From the NCBI GenBank assembly GCA_038880555.1, contig JAVZRN010000002.1, forward strand, positions 62,001-126,000: a stretch of DNA of 64,000 nucleotides, in the 5' to 3' direction. The translations under genes and the position numbers were made by a program. Origin of the DNA: Candidatus Bathyarchaeia archaeon. Its GTDB lineage: Archaea > Thermoproteota > Bathyarchaeia > Bathyarchaeales > Bathycorpusculaceae. This document shows, piece by piece, positions 27,114 through 29,986 of this stretch (positions are counted from its first letter, which is position 1; every line of letters begins with the position of its first letter). The notes under the pieces are model-generated. The model was not told the DNA's origin and made no database searches. It saw nothing but the letters and a program-made list of their open reading frames with translations.

Positions 27114-27602
27114 TTGCCCGAAGAAACCGAAGGCCGAAAATGTATAGCAGCTGTAAGAGTCCGCGGAATTATAAGCGCACCATTGCAAGTTAGGGAAACC
27201 TTAAAAATGTTAAACTTGAAACGGAACAATTATGCAGTTTTAATTGATAATAGGCCTTCTTTTCTTGGGATGTTAAAAACAGCCCAAAGCTTTGTTACGT
27301 GGGGCGAAATTTCAAAGGAAATCTTGAAGGTGCTGCTGAAGGAGAGGGGGAGACTCGTCGGGAACAAGAAATTGACAGATGATTACGCCAAGAAGCTTGG
27401 TTACGCCTCTTTAGAAGAGCTTGCAGAAGCAATATATAACTGCAAAGTTGAATACTGGAAGCTTCCAAACATCCAGCCATATTTTAGGCTGCATCCGCCA
27501 ACTAAAGGTTTTAAGGGCAAGATCAAGAAAGGCTATGGCGTGGGCGGCGAGCTGGGATATCGCGGCGAAAAAATTAACGAGCTTTTGGAGAGAATGATTT
27601 AA
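27114..27602 (+). CDS. rpl30: Large ribosomal subunit protein L30 (uL30)
   Basis: The 162-residue protein is the long archaeal L30: CIAAVRVRGIISAPLQVRETLKMLNLKRNNYAVLIDNRPSFLGMLKTAQSFVTWGEI, then an alpha-helical extension ending FRLHPPTKGFKGKIKKGYGVGGELGYRG. It starts at TTG 27114, immediately after the S5 stop. The normal next gene is L15; here a small heat-shock protein gene comes first. Confidence 0.95.
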   Translation: MPEETEGRKCIAAVRVRGIISAPLQVRETLKMLNLKRNNYAVLIDNRPSFLGMLKTAQSFVTWGEISKEILKVLLKERGRLVGNKKLTDDYAKKLGYASLEELAEAIYNCKVEYWKLPNIQPYFRLHPPTKGFKGKIKKGYGVGGELGYRGEKINELLERMI

Positions 27603-27679
27603 GCTCCACTGATGATGTGGCGATACCTTTTATAGTTAGTTTTAGAATGCGTTTGTGTTAAGGGGGAGGAAAAAGCAGC

Positions 27680-28117
27680 GTGAGATGGCGAAGGAGCGAG
27701 AAACGACCAAAATGGTTTAGAACTGCGAAAAGACAGGGCAGGACCGAGGATAAAATTTTCAAGTTTAAAAATTTGAGGGTTGAGGAACGAAGTCCACGCA
27801 AGTACAAAAGTTTGAAATCTTTTAAGGTTAAAAATTGGAGGGAACCCGAGCCGCTGGTGGATGTTTTTAGGGAAAAAGATAGGATAGTTATTGTCGCAGA
27901 GCTCAAGGGCTTTAAAAGGGAAAACATAAAAGTTCAAGCTGAAAAACGGCAGCTAACTTTGATGGCAAAGGCTCAAGGACGCAGATACTATAAAAGTTTA
28001 AATCTTCCAGACGCTGTGATTCCAGAAGCAGCCCGCATAACATATAAGAATGGAGTCCTCGAAATACAGTTAAAGAAAGCCATAGAAGAGAGACCACTGG
28101 ACAAGGTTGCTGGTTAA
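27680..28117 (+). CDS. Small heat-shock protein (Hsp20/alpha-crystallin) with basic N-terminal extension
   Basis: The 145-residue protein has an alpha-crystallin domain at about 56-136 (VDVFREKDRIVIVAELKGFKRENIKVQAEKRQLTLMA, then YKSLNLPDAVIPEAARITYKNGVLEIQLKK). Residues 1-55 are rich in Arg and Lys (RWRRSEKRPKWFRTAKRQGR). There is no C-terminal I-x-I anchor, so oligomer assembly may differ from typical sHSPs. It starts at GTG 27680, with GGGGGAGG at 27662-27669, 10 bases upstream. It lies between rpl30 (77 bases) and rpl15 (2 bases), in the same direction. A ribosome-associated chaperone is a reasonable but unproved idea. Confidence 0.85.
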   Translation: MRWRRSEKRPKWFRTAKRQGRTEDKIFKFKNLRVEERSPRKYKSLKSFKVKNWREPEPLVDVFREKDRIVIVAELKGFKRENIKVQAEKRQLTLMAKAQGRRYYKSLNLPDAVIPEAARITYKNGVLEIQLKKAIEERPLDKVAG

Positions 28118-28119
28118 AG

Positions 28120-28557
28120 ATGCCCCATAAACTTAGGAAAATCCGCAAAAAACGCGGTTCAAGAACCTGCGGCTACGGAAGAGTAGGACAGCATAGAAAA
28201 TCAGGCTCCAAGGGATACCGAAGGGCTGGACGTCACAAGCACGGCTGGACATACGTCATAAAATACGAGCCAGAATACTTCGGGAAAAAGGGCTTCACTT
28301 CACCTAAAAGTTTGAGGCAGGAAGTCAAAATCATAAATGTTGGAGAACTTGAAGAAATAGCCGAAAAATGCGGAAAAACAGAGAAAGGCAAAATTCTCAT
28401 AGACTTGGAAGGTTTAGGCTATACAAAGCTTCTCGGCGCTGGAAAAGTAACGAAACCTCTAATTGTTAAAGTTGCCTCCTGTTCGAAATCGGCGGTTGAA
28501 AAAATAGAGGAGGCTGGAGGACAAGTTATAGTAGAGTCTCAAAAAGCTGGGGAGTAG
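28120..28557 (+). CDS. rpl15: Large ribosomal subunit protein L15 (uL15)
   Basis: The 145-residue protein begins PHKLRKIRKKRGSRTCGYGRVGQHRKSGSKGYRRAGRHKHGWTYV, the Gly/Arg-rich archaeal L15 N-terminus, and ends with the L15/L18e domain (LGAGKVTKPLIVKVASCSKSAVEKIEEAGG). It starts two bases after the sHSP stop. secY follows 10 bases later, as is common. Confidence 0.96.
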   Translation: MPHKLRKIRKKRGSRTCGYGRVGQHRKSGSKGYRRAGRHKHGWTYVIKYEPEYFGKKGFTSPKSLRQEVKIINVGELEEIAEKCGKTEKGKILIDLEGLGYTKLLGAGKVTKPLIVKVASCSKSAVEKIEEAGGQVIVESQKAGE

Positions 28558-28567
28558 CTGTTAACCC

Positions 28568-29986
28568 ATGGCTGGAAGATTCCTAAACATGTTCAAACCC
28601 CTTGCGCGTTTCATCCCAGAAGTGAAGGCTCCAGAGCGCAGAGTAAGCTTCAATGAAAAACTCTTCTGGACAGCCATAGCCCTAATAATATACCTAATAA
28701 TGGCCAGTAACGCTTGCAGCCTTTATGGCATTCAAAGGTCAGAAGAATTCGCCCCCTTAAGAATAATTTTTGCTTCAAGCCGCGGCACTTTGATGGAGCT
28801 AGGCATAGGTCCAATCGTGACTGCCGGCTTAATTTTACAACTTTTAGTAGGTTCCGCCATAATAGAATGCGACATGTCGAAGCCTGAAGACAGGGCCTTA
28901 TTTACAACAGCCAGCAAAGTTTTAGCGATAATTCTCACGGGAGTGCAAGCATCAGCCTACATAATAAGCGGAATGTACGGCAACCTGCCCGGCACAACAG
29001 CCATAATCGTTTTCCTACAACTTATAGCCGCTGGGTTCATAGTTCTACTCTTAGACGAGCTTATCCAAAAAGGTTGGGGGTTCGGCAGCGGAATAAGCCT
29101 CTTCATAATGGCGGGTGTTGCACAACAAATATTCCTTCAATGCTTCGACATAAGCGGAGCCGTTGATGAATACTACAATCACGGAATATTTCCTGCGCTG
29201 GTCAGTGCAATAATTAATGGGAAACCAATTACGGGATTATGGTTAAGAGGCAATCTACCATCCTTAACAGGATTTATAGCGACAATAGCTGCTTTCCTTG
29301 CGATAATCTACATGGAAGGCGTTAGAGTAGAACTTCCACTTTCCTATGCCGGTTACCGTGGCTTTAGAAGCCGCTATCCAATAAAGTTATTATACGTTTC
29401 GAACCTTCCGGTAATTTTTGCATCGGCGCTTTTCGCCAACATATACTTCTTCTCGTATCTCCTATGGAGCCAACCATGGGGTAGAGACAACCCTTGGATA
29501 CAACTTTTGGGTTCATATAGACGTGATCCCAATAGCAATCAATACGTTCCCGCAGGAGGCCTTGTATATTTTGTGACTTCGCCGGGCAACCTTACAAACG
29601 TGATGCATGAGCCATTAAGAGCCATTGGATATTTAGCAATTCTCATAGTCTTCTGTGTAATCTTTTCGCTTACTTGGCTTGAGGTTGGAGGTTTGGGGCC
29701 TTCAACGGTGGCGAAGCAGCTTGTGGATGCTGGCATGCAGATTCCGGGTTATAGGCGTTCTGGTAAAGCTGTTGAGCAGATTCTTAAACGCTATATTCCA
29801 GCAGTTACTGTTTTAGGCGGAATCATTGTAGGGTTGATTGCTGGTTTGTCAGACTTCTTCGGAGTTTTCGGCTCCGGAATAGGGATTTTACTTTCTGTAG
29901 GCATAATCTACCAGTATTACGAAATCCTGGTGCGGGAGAGGGCTGCTGAAATGTATCCAGCCTTCAGAAGAATATTTGGAGAGTAA
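28568..29986 (+). CDS. secY: Preprotein translocase subunit SecY
   Basis: SecY is the channel subunit of the SecYEbeta protein translocase. The 472-residue protein has ten predicted membrane helices, the plug and early motifs (ELGIGPIVTAGLILQLLVGSAII), VELPLSYAGYRGFRSRYPIKLLYVSNLPVI and FSLTWLEVGGLGPSTVAKQLVDAGMQIPGYRRSGKAVEQILKRYIP. Length matches the archaeal family. It ends 12 bases before the DUF106 gene. The adenylate kinase gene often found after archaeal secY is missing here. Confidence 0.97.
   Translation: MAGRFLNMFKPLARFIPEVKAPERRVSFNEKLFWTAIALIIYLIMASNACSLYGIQRSEEFAPLRIIFASSRGTLMELGIGPIVTAGLILQLLVGSAIIECDMSKPEDRALFTTASKVLAIILTGVQASAYIISGMYGNLPGTTAIIVFLQLIAAGFIVLLLDELIQKGWGFGSGISLFIMAGVAQQIFLQCFDISGAVDEYYNHGIFPALVSAIINGKPITGLWLRGNLPSLTGFIATIAAFLAIIYMEGVRVELPLSYAGYRGFRSRYPIKLLYVSNLPVIFASALFANIYFFSYLLWSQPWGRDNPWIQLLGSYRRDPNSNQYVPAGGLVYFVTSPGNLTNVMHEPLRAIGYLAILIVFCVIFSLTWLEVGGLGPSTVAKQLVDAGMQIPGYRRSGKAVEQILKRYIPAVTVLGGIIVGLIAGLSDFFGVFGSGIGILLSVGIIYQYYEILVRERAAEMYPAFRRIFGE

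Follow-up and report, generated by a model that had tools for sequence, protein, structure and literature searches.

Hsp20 genes have been reported in the S10-spc cluster of ribosomal protein genes in four Thorarchaeotes and one Odinarchaeote (LCB), and the available text of that report proposes horizontal transfer as their origin (Tirumalai et al. 2023, PMC10833476). In the literature collection searched, this was the only paper listed on small heat-shock proteins (sHSPs) in ribosomal protein gene clusters. A search of that collection combining Bathyarchaeia, Hsp20 and ribosomal protein returned none, and the available text of two papers on archaeal ribosomes (PMC13324472 and PMC10516650) contains no mention of Hsp20. 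The latter does describe, in the same portion, three ribosomal proteins gained by the crenarchaeal 50S subunit, aL45, aL46 and aL47, as novel folds, and proposes that aL45 and aL47 of Sulfolobus lie near SRP54 or the translocon. Dedicated chaperones of ribosomal proteins have been described in yeast, where they can capture nascent chains. One of these, Sqt1, is a WD propeller that holds its ribosomal protein by a negatively charged surface (PMC4491177, available text).

The gene examined here lies in a window of 64,000 nucleotides (the whole stretch of DNA that was analysed) from a Candidatus Bathyarchaeia archaeon. Like the Asgard Hsp20, with which it was compared by the published description only, it has been added to the S10-spc cluster. 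While the presence of Hsp20 in this cluster in some Asgard archaea was already known (PMC10833476, available text), the new features are the basic shift of the whole protein, a conserved WRR leader, a basic linker that evolves fast, and the lack of a convincing IxI tail in the clade that includes the window copy, here referred to as the basic clade. The best PDB sequence match of the window sHSP is an archaeal Hsp20, Hsp20.1 of Sulfolobus solfataricus (4rzk, 64 bits), which has the same short alpha-crystallin domain (ACD) fold (rmsd 1.3, 46 % identity, 81 columns). The score against the NCBIfam archaeal Hsp20 equivalog NF041800 was 91 bits, below the cut-off of 140. Unlike 4rzk and the proteins covered by NF041800, sHSPs of the basic clade carry a basic arm where an ordinary N-terminal one would be, lack the IxI tail and have a pI of about 10.4. 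The likeness to Sqt1 is that of a chaperone tied to ribosomal protein production, but the binding face of Sqt1, negative in the available description, is opposite in charge. Like aL45–aL47, as these are described in the available text, the window-clade sHSP may be a lineage-specific addition to the archaeal large subunit; however, those proteins are novel folds, whereas the sHSP has an ACD.

Gene order and the putative transcript

The sHSP coding sequence (27680..28117, forward strand; GTG start, stop included, 145 aa) is found between the genes for uL30 (27114..27602, PF00327, Ribosomal_L30) and uL15 (28120..28557, PF00828, Ribosomal_L27A), and uL15 is followed by SecY (28568..29986, PF00344), all on the same strand. 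There are 77 nt between the end of uL30 at 27602 and the sHSP start, with a Shine-Dalgarno-like GGGGGAGG at 27662..27669 (+) identified by sequence reading, and the uL15 ATG at 28120 is 2 nt past the sHSP stop. These coordinates agree with a preliminary description of this DNA, which placed the gene between rpl30 and rpl15 and two bases from the latter. PF00011 (HSP20) matches residues 63–137 with 34.2 bits (cut-off 20.8). The open reading frame is a real gene: dN/dS in the ACD is 0.08 and 0.14 when the window copy is compared to its two relatives from the same genus.

Some match to the window sHSP was found in all 40 genomes of relatives searched. The preliminary description had called for a survey of the L30-sHSP-L15 order and would have been undermined by an insertion confined to this genome. 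The survey has now been run, and the sHSP-uL15 order is kept in the lineage: a near-full-length orthologue is present in 23 of 24 genomes of the window's family, directly before uL15-secY in all 23. The exception, G007, is an assembly that is 64 % complete and also lacks uL15. Among these family loci, secY follows uL15 in 23/23 and uL30 is upstream in 19/23, inside the stretch fetched. Named loci were picked by uL15, not by sHSP. They are the best 80 by closeness to the uL15 query and are rich in relatives for that reason, nearly all being titled Candidatus Bathyarchaeota or a bathyarchaeal genus, and the sHSP is directly before uL15 in 60 of them. In 58 loci, the uL15 start falls between −17 and +26 nt relative to the stop codon of the sHSP, and the two genes overlap in 11 of them. 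Start codons were assigned by a script and could be wrong for some rows (L124, L131 and L133 look too long). In 21 of the 60, uL30 is not within ~700 nt upstream, in some cases from a contig end, and the sHSP and uL15 are still joined. The unit that stays joined is sHSP-uL15-secY, the sHSP being tied more lastingly to uL15-secY than to uL30.

Outside the window's family, 85 regions with uL15 were taken from a set of 151 genomes, covering 35 further families of the phylum, and 15 of these regions have an sHSP before uL15. These belong to eight families (f2, f6, f11, f15, f18, f33, f35 and f37), and the same order was seen in one f4 genome (L032). Gene calls in this survey are HMM matches on ORFs of at least 40 aa, which a very divergent sHSP could escape. 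From the counts by family, the sHSP-uL15 arrangement therefore has a patchy distribution in the phylum and is fixed in the clade of the window copy. Some individual loci depart from the usual layout. The cluster is split in two f37 loci (L267 and L279, from G143 and G128), with sHSP-uL15-secY at one place, while at the other uL30 is followed after ~0.8–1 kb by a second, different Hsp20. Two f15 loci (L174 and L175, from G042 and G050) have uL30-uL15 gaps of ~180–200 nt without a recognisable sHSP, which may hold sHSP remnants; other f15 members have the sHSP. Two of the 23 genomes searched with PF00011, G046 and G050, had no Hsp20 match despite claimed completeness of 96–98 %.

The gap between uL30 and the sHSP contains a BRE/TATA-like promoter element, GCGATACCTTTTATA, at 27620..27634 (+), recognised as a sequence pattern. 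Of the 58 named basic-type loci that could be assessed (omitting L120, which belongs to another type, and L073, with too little upstream sequence), 55 have the pattern built on GCGATACCTTTTATA upstream of the sHSP, and the TATA box is mostly ~45–58 nt ahead of the start codon. It was not found before any of 21 stand-alone Hsp20 paralogues. Stand-alone paralogues of the family (L239, L242, L237, L244, L246 and L247) have a conserved promoter element of their own, AGCA(T/C)AA(A/G)ATTTATA-like, that is unlike that of the operon copy. GCGATACCTTTTATA was also considered as a general motif of a ribosomal protein regulon. This was rejected, as the element has one exact copy in its own genome, and sites with up to two mismatches number 32 versus 40 for a reversed-pattern control. 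An Rfam search for an RNA leader in the gap gave nothing at gathering scores (two tRNAs were found elsewhere in the window), and a sigma-70/terminator scan of 27560–27700, of a kind unsuited to archaea, found nothing.

This element suggests that the sHSP gene probably heads its own transcript. Given the conserved promoter in the gap and the sHSP and uL15 staying joined without uL30, the likely transcript is sHSP-uL15-secY. The earlier view that the gene is inside the operon holds for gene order, but the 77-nt gap with its conserved promoter element argues against it for the transcript. Similarly, production with ribosomal proteins would apply to uL15, as part of the sHSP-uL15-secY unit, and not to uL30, from which the sHSP is separated by the promoter element.

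Architecture and charge of the basic clade

The protein can be divided into a conserved N-terminal leader (residues 1–13, WRR...K..KWF; 27680..27718, +), a variable basic linker (residues 14–54; 27719..27841, +), the ACD (residues 55–134; 27842..28081, +), supported by PF00011, AlphaFold2 and 4rzk, and a C-terminal tail lacking an IxI anchor in the tail pattern check (28082..28114, +). These parts were compared in alignment A3, which contains 56 of the 60 operon copies and the window copy (57 rows; L120, L124, L131 and L133 were excluded). PF00011 matches all 57, placing them in the Hsp20/alpha-crystallin family. In the leader, 55/57 rows have W3 and 57/57 have R or K at position 5, and no amino acid differs between the window copy and the two same-genus copies. 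Leader dN/dS was 0.70–1.45 in three pairs, from tiny counts, and firm ratios cannot be expected from so short a segment. The ACD has dN/dS of 0–0.15 in 16 of 17 pairs, the remaining value of 0.70 (L077-L080) being based on very few changes. The linker gave 0.09–0.56 (15 of 17 pairs estimable), and with so fast a linker, part of the N-terminus may be weakly constrained. AlphaFold2 pLDDT is ~90 for residues 61–130 and 40–56 for residues 1–50, and the N-terminus is predicted to be a disordered arm. A layout of this kind, in which a loose tether of basic residues joins a short conserved leader to a folded domain, is what would be expected of a docking arm. However, a WFRRRR-like start also occurs in ordinary stand-alone paralogues, and the leader alone is therefore no new ribosome motif.

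Some A3 members also match the CS domain (32/57) or an SHQ1-like CS domain (16/57), with E values up to 0.01. SHQ1 is an RNP assembly factor, and the likeness may be at the level of the fold only. One stand-alone Hsp20-like protein (L231, from G023) is 252 aa long, with a long charged coiled-coil-like N-terminus and without an IxI tail, and by eye resembles a gas-vesicle protein.

The Arg/Lys richness of the N-terminus pointed out previously is confirmed by the composition of the first 54 residues, which have 41 % K+R and a net charge of +17. None of the other window genes among the 23 compared is higher (uL15, 31 % and +15), the names of the other ribosomal proteins in this comparison coming partly from our own reading of the ORFs. 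The basic character extends to the whole protein. All 59 named copies of the basic clade have a pI of 10.0–10.9 (mean 10.4), whereas the mean is 6.6 both in other operon sHSPs (n=16) and in stand-alone copies (n=36). Mean net charge of the ACD is +4.9 in the basic clade versus −3.4 and −2.1 in these two groups, and that of the N-terminal part is +16.0 (8 to 24; K+R 0.33) versus +1.3 in both. As the stand-alone controls include 21 copies from the window's family, the charge shift is not proteome-wide. Within the ACD, basic residues were gained at positions 88, 91, 97, 111, 130 and 132 and acidic residues lost at positions 57, 68, 79, 82, 90, 97, 106 and 114, comparing 19 family rows with 44 others (two f2 rows were set aside). 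The basic extension, whose absence from orthologues would have told against the preliminary description, is present in 59/59 basic-type named copies, though the charge is weaker in some, with an N-terminal net down to +8.

Two features of canonical sHSPs are thus lacking in the basic clade: the near-neutral, amphipathic N-terminal arm and the C-terminal IxI anchor of oligomeric members. Using a loose pattern, an IxI-type tail was detected in 2/59 basic copies, versus 14/16 other operon and 35/36 stand-alone copies. Both basic-clade matches are doubtful, as the VIV of L079 runs on into NEG, and L119 stops just past the last ACD strand. The window copy has no IxI tail, and the missing anchor motif had been correctly recognised.

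The operon sHSPs of other families (L120, L183, L184, L146, L226 and others) occupy the same place before uL15 but differ in their mean pI and in having an N-terminal helix that is amphipathic by eye. They look ordinary: the start is RRRR-rich, and then come an amphipathic WFDIFDEF-like stretch, a GFSxxIGPDGKP segment (in most copies), the ACD and the IxI-type tail. The f2 and f4 copies look intermediate. The former are basic, yet retain NPWFD-FDDIE, and in the latter both a WFDIFDEI stretch and the tail, QKIFVK, are retained. Two f11 operon sHSPs from the same class (L157 and L158, from G063 and G078) are only mildly basic and have neither the IxI tail nor GFSxxIGPDGKP, and may have lost the oligomer anchors independently.

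Origin of the operon copies

In a tree of the ACD (81 columns, 65 rows selected by us), one starred group (97/98) contains 26 of the 29 rows of stand-alone Hsp20. For the 36 operon copies, three label changes are required, against a mean of 21.7 after shuffling, and a single operon clade was not rejected (AU p 0.39). On these values a recent insertion of the sHSP is unsupported. With this number of columns and rows, the tree suggests a single origin without proving it, and old vertical residence of the operon sHSP within this phylum fits the tree, which is suggestive. This differs from the horizontal transfer proposed for the Asgard Hsp20 (PMC10833476, available text). On a SecY+uL15 tree (FastTree, 158 loci after removal of 9 of 167, with long-branch joins flagged), sHSP presence or absence needs 11 changes, and losses or transfers must therefore have occurred. 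The basic form corresponds to one branch of this tree, with the gene in 60/60 rows and local support of 95.

Possible functions of the basic clade

The basic pI, the lost oligomer parts and the place before uL15 suggest that this sHSP now works on the ribosome. The reading we prefer, to which we give a probability of about 0.45, is that an old operon sHSP became, in one clade of Bathyarchaeota, a basic protein that probably does not oligomerise and that docks on ribosomes or their large-subunit precursor. The WRR leader and basic linker would hold rRNA, and the tethered, now positive ACD would sit on or over the ribosome surface and there aid folding, assembly or stress protection. Its own promoter would drive production of the sHSP along with that of uL15 and SecY. 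This model starts from the gene order and its conservation, the recharging of the whole protein, the IxI loss, the predicted disordered N-terminus, the promoter element and the single basic clade, and would extend them to RNA or ribosome contact, oligomeric state, transcript structure and function. Against it, a neighbouring gene can be retained for co-expression alone, the linker dN/dS reaches 0.56, N-terminal charge falls as low as +8, and ordinary paralogues also have the WFRRRR-like start. The preliminary description named rRNA and nascent ribosomal proteins as possible partners. Judging from charge, binding to rRNA or the ribosome is likely, as it fits the pI and the positive ACD. Binding of nascent basic ribosomal proteins appears less likely by analogy with Sqt1, whose negative surface (PMC4491177, available text) has no counterpart here in the pI of all 59 copies or in the mean whole-domain charge of the ACD. 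Replacement of NAC at the tunnel exit was rejected, as NAC is found in 39/40 genomes, among them all 24 from the window's family.

It is possible, though we consider it unlikely, that recharging (pI ~6.6 to 10.4) and loss of the oligomer anchors turned an ordinary sHSP before uL15 into a true lineage-specific ribosomal protein in this Bathyarchaeota clade, a fixed, stoichiometric component of the 50S subunit in which the ACD serves only as a structural block and has lost its chaperone role. The ribosomal-protein-like pI and tail composition, the presence of the gene in every row of its clade, the ribosomal protein neighbourhood with a close or overlapping uL15 start, and the crenarchaeal precedent of aL45–aL47 (PMC10516650, available text) all favour this. 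However, the ACD is strongly conserved and belongs to a domain family that usually holds clients, and the linker is more variable than we would expect of a tail threaded into rRNA. The patchiness of the arrangement, the ordinary sHSPs at the same place in other families and the relaxed linker dN/dS would be accommodated by an ordinary stress chaperone, whose place only gives co-expression with uL15 and secY and whose basic arm either has another use, such as binding clients or the nucleoid, or has drifted since the anchor was lost. We rate this as rather unlikely, since the charge shift is one-way, includes the ACD and is seen in 59/59 copies, while the 21 same-family stand-alone copies are unshifted as a group; the leader is also constrained, and the sHSP is never missing in its clade wherever uL15 is found.

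Two narrower roles are suggested by the neighbouring genes. Immediate adjacency, with overlap in 11/58 loci, and the capture of nascent chains by yeast dedicated chaperones (PMC4491177, available text) would suit a dedicated chaperone that captures uL15 as it is made next to the sHSP, but this is very unlikely because both proteins are basic (uL15, pI 10.0; sHSP, pI 10.6) and the client face described for Sqt1 is negative. Least probable is a holdase at the ribosome-translocon junction for SecY-bound nascent chains. It would be in keeping with secY following in all 23 family loci and with the proposed location of Sulfolobus aL45/aL47 (PMC10516650, available text), but uL15-secY adjacency is general, being present in most loci without an sHSP, and proximity to secY therefore says little for such a role.

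The docking model predicts that the sHSP will be found in bathyarchaeal ribosome preparations. The findings also suggest that the Hsp20 in the ribosomal protein cluster of Asgard archaea may be an old inherited arrangement and not a stray transfer. The ordinary operon sHSPs, the half-changed copies and the fully basic form make up a natural series for how a stress chaperone joins, or becomes a guest of, the translation machinery.
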